The notes below the pieces were generated by a model. It was not told the DNA's origin. It made no database searches and was given only the letters and a program-made list of their open reading frames with translations. 64,000 nucleotides of DNA from contig NZ_QXJC01000001.1 of NCBI RefSeq assembly GCF_003570885.1, positions 186,001-250,000 on the forward strand, in the 5' to 3' direction. The first letter of the stretch is position 1. Each line of letters opens with the position of its first letter. This stretch comes from Simplicispira hankyongi (GTDB lineage Bacteria > Pseudomonadota > Gammaproteobacteria > Burkholderiales > Burkholderiaceae_C). The translations under genes and the position numbers were made by a program. This document shows, one piece after another, positions 41,657 to 49,904 of the stretch.

Positions 41657-42139
41657 TTAACCGCGTGCCGGAACGGCTGCTGCAGGCGTACGCCGCGACA
41701 GGCTGATGATGGTGGGTGCGCCTATGGGCTGCGCAGCGTCTTCTGAGACCAGGTCGGCGAGCGTGGCGCCATCGAGTTCGCTCAGGTATGAGGCCAGCGC
41801 GCGCTGAAAGAGTTTTTTCAAACGGCAGGCGGGGCTCAGGCGGCAGGTGTTGGAGTTTTCGTCGAAGCATTCGACCATGCGAAAGTCACTTTCGCACCAG
41901 CGCACGACTGCGCCTATGCCGATCGCAGAGGGTTCGAGCAGCAGGCGTACACCACCGCCACGGCCGCGGGTGGTTTCAAGCAGGCCATGGCGCGCCAAGT
42001 CGTTGACGATCTTCATCAGATGGTTTTTCGACAGCGTATGGCTTTTCGCCAGCTCGGCGATGGTCACGCGTCTTTCTCGGTGCTGTGCGCAGTACATCAG
42101 TACGCGCAAGGTGTAATCGGTATAGCTGGCAAGACGCAT
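41657..42139 (-). CDS. nsrR: NsrR-type Rrf2 family regulator (nitric-oxide-sensing Fe-S repressor)
   Basis: 160 residues from ATG 42139, where Rrf2 proteins begin (MRLASYTDYTLRVLMYCA). Winged helix: VTIAELAKSHTLSKNHLMKI, LLETTRGRGGGVRL. Three cysteines at 91, 99 and 105 (ECFDENSNTC, SPACRL) match the NsrR cluster ligands, with spacing typical of NsrR rather than IscR. NsrR represses NO-response genes until NO destroys its Fe-S cluster. Divergent from nnrS with a 23 bp near-palindrome between that fits the NsrR box, so it probably controls itself and nnrS. Confidence 0.88.
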   Translation of the reverse strand: MRLASYTDYTLRVLMYCAQHRERRVTIAELAKSHTLSKNHLMKIVNDLARHGLLETTRGRGGGVRLLLEPSAIGIGAVVRWCESDFRMVECFDENSNTCRLSPACRLKKLFQRALASYLSELDGATLADLVSEDAAQPIGAPTIISLSRRTPAAAVPARG

Positions 42140-42186: not shown

Positions 42187-42209
42187 AAGATACATATAAA
42201 ATGCATCTT
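42187..42209. promoter_or_regulatory. NsrR box between nsrR and nnrS
   Basis: AAGATACATAT (42187-42197), one central A, AAATGCATCTT (42199-42209): arms match as inverted copies at 8 of 11 positions, and TAAGAT/ATCTTA extends the symmetry. This resembles the NsrR operator (AAGATGYATTT and its complement). Lies 48-70 bp from each start codon. Confidence 0.75.
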
Positions 42210-42257: not shown

Positions 42258-43469
42258 ATGAAAACTACCCTTCCTCCCTTGGTCGGCGCTGGTGCCAAGG
42301 CGCCTGCCAAAAAAGCCTTGTACGGCTGGCCGGTGCTGCGCCTGGGTTTTCGCCCTTTTTATATCGTTGCGGCAGCCCTGGCCTGCGTCGCAGTACCGCT
42401 GTGGGTGGCGGCCATGCTGGGCGCCGTCACACTGCACCTCGCGGTGCCGCCGATGCTGTGGCATGCACATGAAATGCTGCTGGGTTTTGCGACCGGCGTC
42501 ATCATGGGCTTCCTGCTGACGGCGGTGAAAGCCTGGACCGGGCTGCAAACGCCTCGTGGTGCGCCACTGGGCGCCCTGGTGCTGCTCTGGCTGGCAGCGC
42601 GGGTCGCCGCCTGGGTGGCTCCGTACCCGGTGTATGCCGCGCTTGATGTGGTGCTGCTGCCGATTGTGGCCATCATCATGGTGCGGGTGTTGCTGCGCGC
42701 TGGCAACAAGCGCAACCTGCCATTGGCGGGCATTTTGATTCTGTTGTCCCTGGCGAATCTGGCGTTTCACCTTTCGGTCATGGGTCTGGTGCCGTTTCAG
42801 CCCTCCAGCGCGCTGTATGCGGCGCTTGGGCTGATCGTGATGGTCGAATGCGTGATGGCGGGCCGGGTGATTCCGGCATTCACGATGAGCGTGAACCCGG
42901 GGTTGAAAATCACCGTGCCGAAATGGCTGGAACGCAGCGCATTGGCCTGCACGGCCGTGGGGCTGGCGCTGTGGGTGTTTGCGCCGGCAGGCTGGCTCAC
43001 CTTTGCCGTGCTGGCCGCCGCCGCCGCCTTGCAGTTGGCGCGCATGCTCCACTGGCAGACACTGGCGACGCGCACGCGGCCGATTCTCTGGATTCTGCAT
43101 GCCGCATACGCATGGATTCCGTTAGGCCTGGCCTTGCTGGCGCTGGCCCAGCCAGGCTGGGTGTTGGTGTCGCTTGGGGTGCATGCGCTGGCGGTGGGCG
43201 CCACGGGTGGTCTCATCATTGGCATGGTGACGCGCACTGCGCGTGGACACACGGGCCGGCCATTGCAGGCATCGCGCGCCGAGGTGCTGGCCTATGTGCT
43301 GGTCATGGCGGCTGCCGTGCTGCGCGTGCTGGTGCCGCTGGTGGCACCGCAGTGGTACACGCATGCGCTGGTGTGTGCGGCCACGGCCTGGACGACCGCG
43401 TTTGTGATTTACCTCGTGATGTACGTTCCCTGGCTGACGAACACCCGGCTCGATGGCAAGGACGGCTGA
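42258..43469 (+). CDS. nnrS: NnrS family membrane protein (nitric oxide tolerance)
   Basis: 403 residues from ATG 42258; an in-frame ATG at 42201 lies inside the NsrR box and is unlikely. About twelve hydrophobic helices. Family signatures: PVLRLGFRPFYIVAAALACV at the N-terminus, PPMLWHAHEMLLGFATGVIM, TAVKAWTGLQTPRGAPL, and GGLIIGMVTRTARGHTGRPL near the end. NnrS proteins bind haem and copper and help cells withstand NO stress, without being NO reductases. Controlled by the adjacent NsrR box. Confidence 0.93.
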   Translation: MKTTLPPLVGAGAKAPAKKALYGWPVLRLGFRPFYIVAAALACVAVPLWVAAMLGAVTLHLAVPPMLWHAHEMLLGFATGVIMGFLLTAVKAWTGLQTPRGAPLGALVLLWLAARVAAWVAPYPVYAALDVVLLPIVAIIMVRVLLRAGNKRNLPLAGILILLSLANLAFHLSVMGLVPFQPSSALYAALGLIVMVECVMAGRVIPAFTMSVNPGLKITVPKWLERSALACTAVGLALWVFAPAGWLTFAVLAAAAALQLARMLHWQTLATRTRPILWILHAAYAWIPLGLALLALAQPGWVLVSLGVHALAVGATGGLIIGMVTRTARGHTGRPLQASRAEVLAYVLVMAAAVLRVLVPLVAPQWYTHALVCAATAWTTAFVIYLVMYVPWLTNTRLDGKDG

Positions 43470-43632: not shown

Positions 43633-43926
43633 ATGCTTCCTACCCAATCGCCCGTGATTGATGTTCGTGAAATTCCCCCGCCGCAGCGCCACTCGACCAT
43701 TTTTGGCCGTTTTGACGAGTTGCTGCCTGGCGAAGCCGTACAAATCATCAGCGACCACGACCCGCGCCCGCTGCGCCACCAGTTCGATTCGCGCACGCCA
43801 GGCCAGTTTCAGTGGGCCTACCTTCAATCTGGACCCGACCAGTGGCGCGTGCTGATCAGCAAGCTGGAGATGCCGGAAGATGCGGAAGAGCACTCCTGCT
43901 GCTCGGGCGGCGCTTGCGGCGGCTGA
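43633..43926 (+). CDS. DUF2249 domain protein
   Basis: 97 residues. DUF2249 core: VIDVREIPPPQRHSTIFGRF, DELLPGEAVQIISDHDPRPL, RHQFDSRTPGQFQWAYLQSG. The fold is SirA/TusA-like. The C-terminal tail SCCSGGACGG has three cysteines, which could bind metal or an Fe-S cluster. DUF2249 proteins often occur with NnrS, hemerythrin-like or denitrification genes, as here. Function not established. A MITE-like element separates it from nnrS, and it ends at a bidirectional terminator shared with sufT. Confidence 0.85.
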   Translation: MLPTQSPVIDVREIPPPQRHSTIFGRFDELLPGEAVQIISDHDPRPLRHQFDSRTPGQFQWAYLQSGPDQWRVLISKLEMPEDAEEHSCCSGGACGG

Positions 43927-43989: not shown

Positions 43990-44538
43990 TTACATGCCCA
44001 TGGACAACATGGCTGCTTCCGACATGCGCGAGCGGTCCCAGGGCGGGTCGAACACCATGTTGACGGTGATCTCGCCGACGCGCGGGATCGCCAGCACCTT
44101 GTCGCACACCTCATCGGCAATTGCCTCGCCCATGCCACAGCCGGGCGCGGTGAGCGTCATGTCGATGAGCGCGCGCACATCGCCGCCTTCCATGGGTTCC
44201 AGGTCACAGCGGTAGACGAGGCCCAAGTCCACGATGTTGACCGGAATCTCCGGGTCGTAGCAGGTCTTGAGGGTGTTCCAGATCAGGCCGCTGACATCGT
44301 CAATTTCAACGTTCTCGGGGTGTTCGACTTCGGCGGGCGGCTCCTTGCCAATGGCGTCGGCATCACTCCCCTTGAGGCGCACCAACTGGCCCTCGACGAC
44401 CAGGGTGAAGTTGGAGCCCAGCGCCTGGGTCACCTGGGCCCAGAGCCCGCTGGGCAAATCCATGGGTGTGCCATCAGGGATGCGCTCGACCGTCACAGGC
44501 CGATTAATCAGCACGTCTTCGCGCATGCGTTTCATCAT
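43990..44538 (-). CDS. sufT: SufT: Fe-S cluster assembly accessory protein (MIP18/DUF59 family)
   Basis: 182 residues from ATG 44538, with AGGAGA 7-12 bp upstream and overlap with the sufU stop. The C-terminal DUF59 domain is clear: YDPEIPVNIVDLGLVYRCDL, LIDMTLTAPGCGMGEAIADE (with the conserved cysteine), and VNMVFDPPWDRSRMSEAAM. The N-terminal 80 residues are the extension typical of proteobacterial SufT (PDGTPMDLPSGLWAQVTQAL). SufT assists Fe-S protein maturation, especially at high demand. Last gene of sufBCDSUT. Confidence 0.92.
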   Translation of the reverse strand: MMKRMREDVLINRPVTVERIPDGTPMDLPSGLWAQVTQALGSNFTLVVEGQLVRLKGSDADAIGKEPPAEVEHPENVEIDDVSGLIWNTLKTCYDPEIPVNIVDLGLVYRCDLEPMEGGDVRALIDMTLTAPGCGMGEAIADEVCDKVLAIPRVGEITVNMVFDPPWDRSRMSEAAMLSMGM

Positions 44539-45008
44539 GGTGTTTCTCCTTCCGTGGATACCGGGGCTGCGGGCGCGGCCGGGTTGCTGGCAATGGCATG
44601 CATCAGTGCATGCCAGCCTAGTAGCGCGCATTTGATGCGGCTGGGGTAGCGGCTGACGCCGGCCAGGCTCACAAGCTTGCCGAGCGGGGCGACGTCGGCA
44701 CTTTCCTCCCCGGTCAGTACGGCGCGAAAGTGCTGTTGCAGCGCCTGCGCGGTGGCAATCTCCTGGCCCTTCACGGCCTCGCTCATCATCGAGGCGGAGG
44801 CCATGCAGATGGCGCAACCCTGGCCGTGAAAGCGGATGTCTGCGAGGCGCCCATCCGCAATATTCAGTTCTACGGAAAGGTCGTCGCCACAAGACGGGTT
44901 GGTGCCACGTGCCTGGTGCGTGGGCGCGGGCAAATGGCCGAAGTTGCGCGGCGCACGTTTGTGCTCCAGCACCAGTTCCTGGTAGAGGTCGGTTTCGGCA
45001 CTGCTCAT
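44535..45008 (-). CDS. sufU: SufU/IscU-like Fe-S scaffold or sulfur-transfer protein
   Basis: 157 residues. Metal/cluster ligands: Cys40 and Asp42 (NPSCGDDLSV), Cys65 (GQGCAICMASASMMSE), Cys127 (YPSRIKCALLGWHAL). The insertion between Cys65 and Cys127 is the SufU type rather than IscU. In the SufU pathway the Zn-bound protein takes sulfur from SufS and feeds SufBCD. Start overlaps the sufS stop, and its stop overlaps sufT, so the three are translationally coupled. Confidence 0.92.
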   Translation of the reverse strand: MSSAETDLYQELVLEHKRAPRNFGHLPAPTHQARGTNPSCGDDLSVELNIADGRLADIRFHGQGCAICMASASMMSEAVKGQEIATAQALQQHFRAVLTGEESADVAPLGKLVSLAGVSRYPSRIKCALLGWHALMHAIASNPAAPAAPVSTEGETP

Positions 45009-46294
45009 CGCAACAGCTCCAGCGCTTTGGCCACGCCGGCGACCAGGCGCTCGACTTCTTCTGGCGTGTTGTAGAGCGCGAACGACGCACGCGTCGTCGG
45101 CCCACAGCCTAGATGCTCCAGCAATGGCTGGGCACAGTGGTGGCCGGTGCGCACAGCGACGCCCTGGCCGTCAAGCAGCGTGCCGATGTCGTGTGGGTGA
45201 ACGCCTTCGGTCACGAAGGAGACGATAGCCGTGTCCTGGGTATCGGGTGACAGCACACGCAGGCCGGGCAGGGCGGCGAGGCCTTGTACCGCTTGGTGGC
45301 GAAGCGCATGCAAATGCTGGTCGATGGCGCTGCGGCCTACGGCGTCTATGAATTTGGCCGCTGCCGCCATGCCAATGGCGCCGCCCACATTGGGCGTGCC
45401 AGCCTCCAGCCGGGCGGGTAGCGCGGCAAAGCTGGCGTCGGTGAAGCTCACCCACTCCACCATGTCGCCACCCAACCGCAGCGGGGCGAGCTGTTCAAGC
45501 GCGTTGCGCGTACCCACGAGGGCGCCTGTGCCCATGGGGCCGTACATCTTGTGCCCCGAGAAAACGAGGAAATCGCAGGGCAGGGCAGAGATATCGGGAA
45601 CGGCATGGGCGGCCACTTGCGCCGCGTCCAACACCGTCAGTGCGCCGGCTTGGCGTGCCAATGCCAGCAGCTCGGCCACGGGCGGGCGCTCGCCAGTGGC
45701 GTTGGCGCAGGCGGTGACGGCAAACACGCGTGTGCGCGGGCTCAGCAGGCGTGCCAGATCTTCTGCGTGCAAATGGCCTTCGGCGTCGGGCAGCAGGATG
45801 CGCAGGACCGCGCCACTCTCGCGCGCCGTGCGCTGCCAGGGCAGCAGGTTGGCGTGGTGCTCAAGGCCGCTCACGATGATCTCGTCGCCCGGCTGCAAGG
45901 GCTTTCCGCCCCCAGCATGTGCAGACAGCCCATGCGCCACAAGGTTGAGCGATTCGGTCGTGCCCGAGGTGAACACCAGTTCGTGCTCAGCCCCCGCACC
46001 GACAAAGCGCTTGAGTTCGGCGCGCGCGGCGTCGTAGGCGTCGGTGGCGCGCTGGCTGAGCGCGTGCACGCCGCGGTGGATGTTGGCGCGGTCGTGGCGC
46101 TCGAAATGCTGCAGCGCGTCGAGCACCGGCTGGGGCATTTGCGTGGTGGCCGCGTTGTCCAGATAAGCGAGCGGGTGGCCCTGAATATGCTGGGAGAGCA
46201 CCGGAAACAGGGCGCGCAGCCCGGTAACGCCGGACGGACCGGTGGGCGCCGCGCCGGATGCGCTGAGCCAGCGAGCGGGGAGCATGTCACCCAT
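45005..46294 (-). CDS. sufS: SufS: cysteine desulfurase
   Basis: 429 residues from ATG 46294, which overlaps the sufD stop; ATG 46285 is an alternative, and the open frame further upstream lies within sufD. PLP lysine Lys249 in SGHKMYGPMGTG; active-site Cys387 in VRTGHHCAQPLL; ANIHRGVHALSQRATDAY and TSGTTESLNLVAHG are the cofactor-binding blocks. Short catalytic-cysteine loop places it in group II (SufS). It releases sulfur from cysteine and passes it to SufU. Confidence 0.95.
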   Translation of the reverse strand: MGDMLPARWLSASGAAPTGPSGVTGLRALFPVLSQHIQGHPLAYLDNAATTQMPQPVLDALQHFERHDRANIHRGVHALSQRATDAYDAARAELKRFVGAGAEHELVFTSGTTESLNLVAHGLSAHAGGGKPLQPGDEIIVSGLEHHANLLPWQRTARESGAVLRILLPDAEGHLHAEDLARLLSPRTRVFAVTACANATGERPPVAELLALARQAGALTVLDAAQVAAHAVPDISALPCDFLVFSGHKMYGPMGTGALVGTRNALEQLAPLRLGGDMVEWVSFTDASFAALPARLEAGTPNVGGAIGMAAAAKFIDAVGRSAIDQHLHALRHQAVQGLAALPGLRVLSPDTQDTAIVSFVTEGVHPHDIGTLLDGQGVAVRTGHHCAQPLLEHLGCGPTTRASFALYNTPEEVERLVAGVAKALELLR

Positions 46295-47498
46295 GGCTTG
46301 TCTCCAGCACTTGGCGCAGCACGCCTTGAAGGGCATCACCTTGCGTCAGGATATCGAACGTGGTGGTGTCGGTGAAGCAGCGCGACAGCAAGGCGTTGGC
46401 CATGCCTTCGATGATGAGCGAGCGTGCGGCGCTCGCGTCCAACCCGCGCTGGCGCGCGTAGAACAACGCATCTTCGGGCAAGGCGCCCCAAGTGGCGCCA
46501 TGGGCCGCCTGCACGTTGTCGTGGTAAATCTCCAGGTGTGGGCGCAGCACCAGACGGGGCTGGCCTCCCAGCGGAATGCCTGCCAGGCGCTGGTGCACGT
46601 CGGCTTCGTCCGAGCCGGGCGCAATGTGCGTGTTGGCGTTGGCCACCGTGTGCGCCTTGCCGCTTGCCAGCACCAGGGCCTCGCTGTGGCTGGTGGTCCG
46701 CGCTGCGGCATGGCGCATGAAGACCTGCTGCTCAAACTGCGTGCCGGCCGCGCAGGTCAGTCCTGCAATATGGGCCGATGAGCCCGCGCCGCTGAGCAGC
46801 ACCTGGCTGCGCTGCAGGTGGTAGCGGCTGCCGCCGGCGACAAAAGCCTGGACGTAGCGGGCGTCCTCGCCGATCTGGGCGTGAACGATGTGCGCGCAGC
46901 GGTCGTCCGCATGCAGTGCGACGACGCGCAGGTGCTGCAGGCTGGCACCCCGGGCGAGGCGCACATGTAGTTGCAGGTTTTGTACCTTCCCGCCAGAGGC
47001 TGCCGTGTCGCCCGCGAGGTGGAGCTCGCGCAGGACACAGTGCGCCCCTTCGGCAATGTCGAGCACCAACAAGGGCGCCTCCACCTGGCCCGTGGGCTGG
47101 TGGCGCAGTTCAAGCTGCGTGGGTTGCTGCACTGTGCCCGCCTCTACCCGCAGGCGCAGGCCCGCAGTGCACAAGGCGCGGTGCGCCCAGGCAAACGGCG
47201 CGGCATCATCGTCGCCCGGCAAATCCAGGCCCGCAAACAGATCGGCGCGCTGCGCGGTGTCGGTGGCTGCCAGCGTGCGTGCCGTGGTGCCGGTGGGTGT
47301 GCCGCCGGCAAGCGTGGTGAGGGTCCAGCCACTGCTGTTCCCTGAGGGGGTTGCTTCAGCCTGCTCCAGCCAGAGTGCAGCCGGTGGCGGCGGCAGGTGG
47401 CGGAAGGATTCGTTCTTTGGTGCTACCCAGCCGGTGGCAGCCAGGTGCTCACGGGCCATCAACATGGCCTCGTGTGCGGTGATGGGGCGGATGTTCAT
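46287..47498 (-). CDS. sufD: SufD: Fe-S cluster assembly scaffold subunit
   Basis: 403 residues from ATG 47498, 4 bp after sufC. The conserved C-terminal half shows RLVLRPHLEIYHDNVQAAHG, ATWGALPEDALFYARQRGLD and ARSLIIEGMANALLSRC, the beta-helix and histidine-containing SufD signature. The N-terminal half is weakly conserved, as usual. Part of the SufBC2D complex. Confidence 0.92.
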   Translation of the reverse strand: MNIRPITAHEAMLMAREHLAATGWVAPKNESFRHLPPPPAALWLEQAEATPSGNSSGWTLTTLAGGTPTGTTARTLAATDTAQRADLFAGLDLPGDDDAAPFAWAHRALCTAGLRLRVEAGTVQQPTQLELRHQPTGQVEAPLLVLDIAEGAHCVLRELHLAGDTAASGGKVQNLQLHVRLARGASLQHLRVVALHADDRCAHIVHAQIGEDARYVQAFVAGGSRYHLQRSQVLLSGAGSSAHIAGLTCAAGTQFEQQVFMRHAAARTTSHSEALVLASGKAHTVANANTHIAPGSDEADVHQRLAGIPLGGQPRLVLRPHLEIYHDNVQAAHGATWGALPEDALFYARQRGLDASAARSLIIEGMANALLSRCFTDTTTFDILTQGDALQGVLRQVLETSHG

Positions 47499-47502
47499 GG
47501 TC

Positions 47503-48276
47503 TCAAGCCTCTGCCAATTCAGGCGCCTGCACAAAACCGGTGCGCGCAATGCGCTGCGCCAGGGTGATGTCGCCGCGCTCGGCGATCTGGCCGTCCGCGA
47601 GGCGCAGCACGGTGTCGGGTTGCAGCGACTCAATCAACTGCAGGTAGTGCGAGACGACGATGAAGGCCGTGCCTTCGCTGCGCAGGCGCTGCACCAGCTC
47701 GACGACAGCGCGCACGCCGTCCACGTCCATGCCCGAGTCGATTTCGTCGAGCACCGCCAGGCGCGGACGCAGCAAGGAGAGTTGCAGCAGTTCGTTGCGC
47801 TTCCTCTCACCGCCCGAAAAGCCATCATTCACCGGGCGGTTGAGCATGTTTTCTGGCAGGCCGAGTGTCGTGGCGGCGGCCTTGGCGCTGCCGAGAAAGT
47901 CGTACGCGTCCTGCGGGTCTTCGCCACGCGCGGCGCGCACGGCATTCATGGCGGTGCGGATGAACAGGTTGTTCTTGACGCCCGGAATTTCGGGGGGCGC
48001 CTGGAACGACAGGAACAGCCCGGCGCGGGCGCGGTCCTGGGGTTCCATGGCCAGCAGATCAGCGCCGCCAAAGCGCGCCGTGCCGTTGGTAGCGTGGTAG
48101 GCCGGATGGCCTGCGAGCGCCAGGCCCAGCGTGCTTTTGCCGCTGCCGTTGGCGCCCATCAGCACCACGAGTTCGCCGGGGGCGACATCCAGGCTGATGG
48201 ATTGCAGGATGGTTTTTTCACCAATGGCAACGCGCAGGGCGTCCAGTTGCAGCAGGGGGGGGGTAGAGGTGGTCAT
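47503..48276 (-). CDS. sufC: SufC: ATPase of the SufBCD complex
   Basis: 257 residues. Walker A GANGSGKSTLG, SufC-specific FLSFQAPPEIPGVKNNLFIR, signature FSGGERKRNELLQLSLL, Walker B LAVLDEIDSGMDVDG, switch His in VVSHYLQLIE. Soluble ABC ATPase that drives conformational change in SufB-SufD. 33 bp after sufB. Confidence 0.95.
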   Translation of the reverse strand: MTTSTPPLLQLDALRVAIGEKTILQSISLDVAPGELVVLMGANGSGKSTLGLALAGHPAYHATNGTARFGGADLLAMEPQDRARAGLFLSFQAPPEIPGVKNNLFIRTAMNAVRAARGEDPQDAYDFLGSAKAAATTLGLPENMLNRPVNDGFSGGERKRNELLQLSLLRPRLAVLDEIDSGMDVDGVRAVVELVQRLRSEGTAFIVVSHYLQLIESLQPDTVLRLADGQIAERGDITLAQRIARTGFVQAPELAEA

Positions 48277-48309: not shown

Positions 48310-49764
<1,455 letters not shown>

Positions 49765-49839: not shown

Positions 49840-49862
49840 TAGATGTAGATAATATGCATCTT
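49840..49862. promoter_or_regulatory. NsrR-like box upstream of the suf operon
   Basis: TAGATGTAGAT (49840-49850), A, then ATATGCATCTT (49852-49862): the two arms are inverted copies at 8 of 11 positions, and the site matches the nsrR/nnrS box at 18 of 23 positions, including the full right arm ATGCATCTT. It sits 76 bp before sufB and faces no other promoter, since the gene on its other side ends here. Confidence 0.6.
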
Positions 49863-49904
49863 TAGGTGAACTGGCAACTCAAAAGCAGTACCTCCGCGTT
49901 GCAA

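Follow-up and report, generated by a model that had tools for sequence, protein, structure and literature searches.

A predicted NsrR-type operator in the suf promoter of Simplicispira hankyongi and related Burkholderiales

NO destroys Fe–S clusters, and denitrifiers produce NO themselves. The beta-proteobacterial NsrR operator has been described as gATGyAT-N5-ATrCATc, with nnrS and norB as targets, and the word 'suf' is absent from the main text of that study (Rodionov 2005, PMC1274295). Repression of suf by NsrR is stated in a 2021 review citing Partridge 2009 (PMC8593673) and repeated in a 2022 study of YtfE from E. coli (PMC9052748), and a 2024 Methylophaga paper cites the NsrR–suf link and reports elevated transcripts of suf and isc in certain cultures. 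The E. coli suf operon starts with sufA and is, according to PMC9973013, also activated by IscR. The same source presents RisR of Myxococcus xanthus as an Rrf2 protein near NsrR that represses isc and suf via a promoter palindrome, and its reference list names, by title, SufR of Mycobacterium tuberculosis as an NO-responsive Fe–S regulator of suf. In Streptomyces NsrR, as described, three cysteines and Asp8 ligate the cluster. The preliminary description of the present locus had taken suf to be unrecorded as an NsrR target. E. coli suf repression in print contradicts this as a general statement, whereas for Burkholderiales the papers of an open-licence library that were searched yielded neither a report of NsrR control of suf in this order nor a precedent for an operator on the suf promoter across a clade without a dedicated suf regulator. 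Because NsrR repression of suf is in print, the principle is known, and the clade-wide operator proposed here would extend a known link.

The window, the whole stretch of 64,000 nucleotides analysed here, belongs to a 3.7-Mb genome (G000), and the named loci nearest to it come from MAGs of Giesbergeria and Acidovorax. Its gene order is nsrR1 (41657–42139, minus strand), nnrS (42258–43469, plus strand, PF05940) and a DUF2249 gene (43633–43926, plus strand, PF10006), followed on the minus strand by sufT, sufU, sufS, sufD, sufC and sufB. The sufB product (48310–49764) scored 887.7 bits with NCBIfam NF008773 (cut-off 717), and those of sufC (47503–48276), sufS (45005–46339), sufU (44535–45008) and the sufT-like gene (43990–44532) scored above the cut-offs of TIGR01978, TIGR01979, TIGR01994 and PF01883, respectively. 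The starts of sufS and the sufT-like gene are uncertain, and the open frame of sufS overlaps sufD (46287–47498), which scored 182.8 bits with TIGR01981, under the cut-off of 222, and is named from its operon position.

In the gap that separates sufB from a FemAB-like gene of the same strand, positions 49840–49862 form an imperfect 23-bp palindrome, TAGATGTAGATAATATGCATCTT (minus-strand read AAGATGCATATTATCTACATCTA), predicted from consensus and matrix matches to be an NsrR-type operator in the suf promoter. It departs from the published NsrR consensus at 1 of 14 positions. A second predicted operator, AAGATACATATAAAATGCATCTT, lies at 42187–42209 in the nsrR1–nnrS intergenic region and matches the NsrR-type pattern with 0 mismatches, in agreement with the earlier assignment of this site as an NsrR operator. 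The likeness of the two sites that had first been noted was reproduced on recomputation, with 18 of 23 positions equal in the better orientation and both imperfect palindromes ending in ATGCATCTT. The location upstream of sufB was likewise correct, but the distance given as 76 bp is 75 bp between the site and the sufB ATG at 49764. When up to three mismatches were allowed, the palindromic pattern occurred at five distinct places in G000 (nsrR/nnrS with 0 mismatches, sufB with 2, norC with 3 and two others with 3 each), compared with one place for the same pattern read backwards as a control; two of the five places sit among genes for flagella and chemotaxis, as identified by eye. The sufB box has its motif in common with boxes at NO-detoxification genes in G000, with 18/23 positions equal for nsrR/nnrS and 15/23 for norC. 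Its lower likeness to the boxes other than that of nsrR/nnrS (norC 15/23, ytfE 14/23, DUF2249 13/23 and ccoN 11/23) counts against the operator reading.

A predicted −10 element (TATTAT, 49849–49854, minus strand) lies within the operator, and a predicted −35 element (TTGCCA, 49872–49877, minus strand) 17 bp from it starts 15 bp ahead of the operator; both are consensus matches. In 20 of 26 boxes before sufB genes of the clade described below, a TTGNNN-17-TANNNT promoter has its −10 inside the box at the same fixed offset, suggesting the geometry of a repressor. The position pair 6/18 reads G–C in 20 of the 26 boxes, T–A in four, A–T in one and G–A in one. Over the full arms, 178 of 234 places are complementary, where swapping arms among operons gave a mean of 163 (p 0.0002, kinship ignored), but only two of nine single arm pairs co-vary beyond shuffles (6/18, p<0.0005; 5/19, p 0.01; kinship ignored). 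If the palindrome merely accompanied a conserved promoter and did not act as an operator, the central −10 hexamer would stay conserved regardless, but the arms beyond the −10 are also conserved and co-vary, and the sufB promoters of other families lack these arms, which makes this explanation extremely improbable.

The family sample of 200 genomes contained 22 with sufB, 17 of them encoding a SufB with 82% or more identity to that of the window and five carrying another SUF type (SufB 66–70% identity). The clade set comprised 27 operons, namely those 17 genomes and 10 named loci (SufB 80–98%), and the other-family set 28 sufB loci outside the family, of 109 matching genomes in the order. L011, whose contig ends before sufB, L019, which has the same box as G193, and L022, from Oligoflexia with 60% identity, were left out of the counts. 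L014 offered just 144 bp of upstream sequence, and in G186, where a globin-like gene sits between box and sufB, the scan covered 300–600 bp upstream of sufB. The 27 SufB proteins grouped together with support of 100/100, and two changes on the tree are needed for the box label.

With at most 2/14 mismatches, the published consensus matched 18 of the 27 clade sufB upstreams but only 1 of 1080 of their dinucleotide shuffles, 0 of 28 other-family sufB upstreams and 0 of five other SUF types in the same family. A matrix built from 36 NO-gene boxes only, with the tested genome left out and levels set by 2700 mononucleotide shuffles, placed 26 of 27 clade upstreams above the 99% level and 24 above the 99.9% level, compared with 1 of 28 other-family operons and 0 of five other SUF types above 99%; the 36 boxes had been collected with a pattern loosened after the sufB boxes were seen, which leaves the consensus test unaffected. 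The preliminary description had named loss of the motif in relatives as what would speak against an operator, and the scan found instead that the motif is kept, with arms common to the NO-gene boxes. Chance around a −10 as the source of the box is rejected by the consensus and matrix tests. That the sufB and nsrR boxes within one genome have a common 'dialect', with either G or T at position 6, was also considered, and it fails in, for example, G176, G072 and G178.

The box lies 20–156 bp before sufB in 25 operons, and in G186 it precedes the globin-like gene ahead of sufB (L152). This gene, 61% to the G000 globin adjoining ytfE, has no match in Pfam or NCBIfam. The sole miss of the 27 is Ramlibacter L015, in which no box was found within 300 bp before sufB. 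At L015:6684–7723, an FNR-type gene overlaps the sufB start, and two boxes (1 and 2 mismatches) stand between it and a divergent ccoN-like gene; the locus was counted as a miss because these boxes may serve either gene. Among the other SUF types, G125 (L043) has an NsrR-like box, AAGATTTATCTTAAATATATCTT, 337 bp before sufB and so outside the 300 bp tested, which counts against a clean split between SUF types. The G125 box precedes an apparent A-type carrier gene, named by eye, ahead of sufB. A different palindrome, TGGTAA...TTACCA, precedes sufB in two further operons of other SUF types in the family (L040 and L041) and may be the mark of a different regulator.

In other families, an Rrf2 match was found within 1.5 kb upstream of sufB at 27 of 28 loci, and at 25 of them the Rrf2 gene ends 3–79 bp before sufB on the same strand; at L186 the match is just ahead of sufB and at L183 about 1.2 kb away. 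All five of these Rrf2 proteins that were tested passed the cut-off of TIGR02944, and no box with fewer than five mismatches occurred within 1.5 kb at any of the 28 loci. In the window, the gene directly before sufB is the FemAB-like gene. None of the four Rrf2 genes of G000 directly precedes sufB, and none of its three cysteine-bearing Rrf2 proteins scored above the TIGR02944 cut-off. The boxes of the clade and the Rrf2 genes of the other families thus point to a shared operator here and a private repressor gene there, suggesting that NsrR may have replaced an older, dedicated suf regulator.

A scan of 17 genomes with the NsrR-arm pattern, allowing at most two mismatches, returned 57 distinct places, 49 of them at suf, NO or respiratory genes, compared with two matches for the pattern read backwards. 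The places comprise sufB (11), nnrS (8), nsrR or nsrR2/ytfE (12), norC/norE/qNor (5), DUF2249 (6), globin (2) and ccoN-like genes (5), together with eight that are other or inside coding sequence; genes at the L078, L082, L095 and L145 places were named by eye. In the remaining six genomes, that of the window among them, the sufB box has at least three mismatches and falls outside the 57. In five genomes (L142, L126, L078, L082 and L095), NsrR-like boxes were observed 35–130 bp ahead of a ccoN-like oxidase gene, the one in G000 lying at C2:50392–50414 (L142:1993). The ccoN-like protein of L142 scored 259 bits with TIGR00780, whose cut-off is 583, and is thus taken as a divergent cbb3-type subunit. 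A membrane protein gene without a match in Pfam or NCBIfam directly follows an NsrR-like box at L077:1553–2962, and in L140, next to DUF2249 genes, inspection by eye showed a start resembling this protein.

The product of nsrR1 has an Rrf2 domain (PF02082, 116.3 bits) with Cys91, Cys99, Cys105 and Asp8. It scored 118.6 bits with the NCBIfam NsrR model (cut-off 182) and 121.1 bits with the RirA model (cut-off 193), and because it falls under the NsrR cut-off we name it NsrR-type; the NCBIfam NsrR model may be narrow. These scores bear on whether the regulator is rather a RirA-like sensor of iron or Fe–S status with iron starvation, not NO, as its natural signal. Of five NsrR orthologues tested, four also had the RirA model first, the outcomes of seven of eight further tests were alike or leaned to RirA solely for proteins of the NsrR1 and NsrR2 types, and a cluster-carrying repressor would respond to other causes of cluster loss too. 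However, matching boxes stand at the NO genes (nnrS, nor, ytfE, DUF2249 and globin), no iron-uptake gene was seen among the 57 places, eight of which are unexplained, and the arms match the NsrR consensus, so that we consider a RirA-like regulator improbable and retain the NsrR-type repressor.

G000 has two such proteins, NsrR1 beside nnrS in the window and NsrR2 beside ytfE (L002). At L002:1333–3137, nsrR2 is divergent from ytfE, with a globin-like gene next, and the fourth Rrf2 protein of G000 (L004:1462–1899) is without the three-cysteine set. In six genomes (G141, G004, G095, G196, G107 and G120), the Rrf2 proteins above the Pfam cut-off are one IscR and one NsrR-type protein, making the latter the best candidate if the binder is an Rrf2 protein. 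This lone protein is of the NsrR1 kind in G107 and of the NsrR2 kind in the other five, and the NsrR2-kind gene stands beside ytfE in G120, G141 and G004 but not in G095 or G196. In G186, a search for NsrR at E 1e-10 gave no match, though three Rrf2 genes are there. Binding by NsrR2, or by both paralogues, instead of NsrR1 alone would explain the sufB box in the five genomes with IscR and the NsrR2 type alone. Nevertheless, the G000 sufB box is nearest that of nsrR1/nnrS and less like that of ytfE, nsrR1 adjoins the suf operon in the window, L010, L011, L012, G107 and G094, and G107 has IscR and NsrR1 only above the Pfam cut-off. Involvement of NsrR2 is hence rather unlikely, though the least so of the alternatives, and the box likeness in G000 favours NsrR1 as the putative binder.

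IscR controls suf in other systems and is present in 17 of the 17 genomes examined, and the argument by elimination is valid only for an Rrf2 binder. Another known type of regulator, IscR or a non-Rrf2 protein, could therefore bind, with the likeness to NsrR boxes due to convergence. However, relative to the IscR type 1 site consensus, ATASYYGACTRWWWYAGTCRRSTAT, all 34 sufB upstreams have at least nine mismatches (the window nine), whereas the iscR promoters of the 17 genomes have three to seven; IscR as the binder was set aside on this type 1 motif alone. Since both the arms and the spacing of the box match the NsrR consensus, convergence seems very unlikely, and an NsrR-type binder remains preferred. 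The iscR promoters of all 17 genomes were without an NsrR box, the best candidates having five to eight mismatches.

Either nnrS or nsrR1 lies within about 10 kb of suf in nine of the 17 family genomes (G000, G107, G072, G010, G178, G141, G142, G094 and G193), and likewise in L010, L011, L012, L017 and L018. Cytochrome cd1, counted with PF02239, which also covers NirF and NirN, was found in 14 of the 17 genomes that have this suf, compared with 44 of the remaining 183 (p 3e-6; counted by genus, 10/12, p 1.5e-4), whereas cNorC, after six weak matches (33–40% identity) of 42 were dropped, was not enriched (4/17 against 32/183, p 0.37). Tentatively, and at somewhat below even odds, we suggest that in a mostly denitrifying clade of Burkholderiales the SUF system lost its own regulator and became an NO repair module with NsrR as its sole cluster-sensing regulator, its operon often beside nnrS, DUF2249 and nsrR and retained mainly where a cd1 nitrite reductase is present, with ISC, controlled by IscR, remaining the housekeeping system.

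Considering these results, we propose, with a probability of roughly 0.84 judged from sequence comparison, that 49840–49862 serves an NsrR-type Rrf2 repressor as its operator within the suf promoter, and that NO or cluster loss derepresses suf. The cluster-loaded repressor would cover the −10 and keep sufBCDSUT expression low. NO, or another cause of cluster loss, would strip the repressor, so that suf would be transcribed with the nnrS, nor, ytfE and DUF2249 genes and damaged Fe–S proteins could be rebuilt. Binding, repression and the NO response at the sufB box are what we infer from these patterns. As the suf promoter and the NO-removal genes of this denitrifier and its relatives appear to carry the same type of switch, NO probably turns on cluster building, which supports the earlier reading that NO may induce Fe–S cluster assembly via an NsrR-like operator. 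NsrR control in this clade would take the place of the dedicated Rrf2 gene found before sufB in other families. If true, the operator would couple cluster assembly directly to NO, which the repressor would gauge through its own cluster, and one Fe–S repressor would stand in for another at suf across a whole clade.

Compared with the described systems, the locus shares its operator and the nnrS target with the NsrR regulons in the main text of Rodionov 2005 (PMC1274295), and NsrR1 has the cluster-ligand set of three cysteines and Asp8 described for Streptomyces NsrR. E. coli sufABCDSE is described as having NsrR as an NO-relieved suf repressor, as proposed here, whereas the present operon is sufBCDSUT, has no IscR type 1 site and carries a box fixed on the −10 clade-wide. 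RisR, as presented in PMC9973013, governs both isc and suf, while isc promoters here are without such a box, and SufR, as far as its title tells, is a different protein with a comparable role. The TIGR02944 SUF regulator, as described, is an Rrf2 regulator of sufBCDSU-type operons whose gene, in the order's other families, precedes sufB; unlike those systems, the clade of the window has no Rrf2 gene directly before sufB and may instead place suf under the predicted NsrR-type operator.
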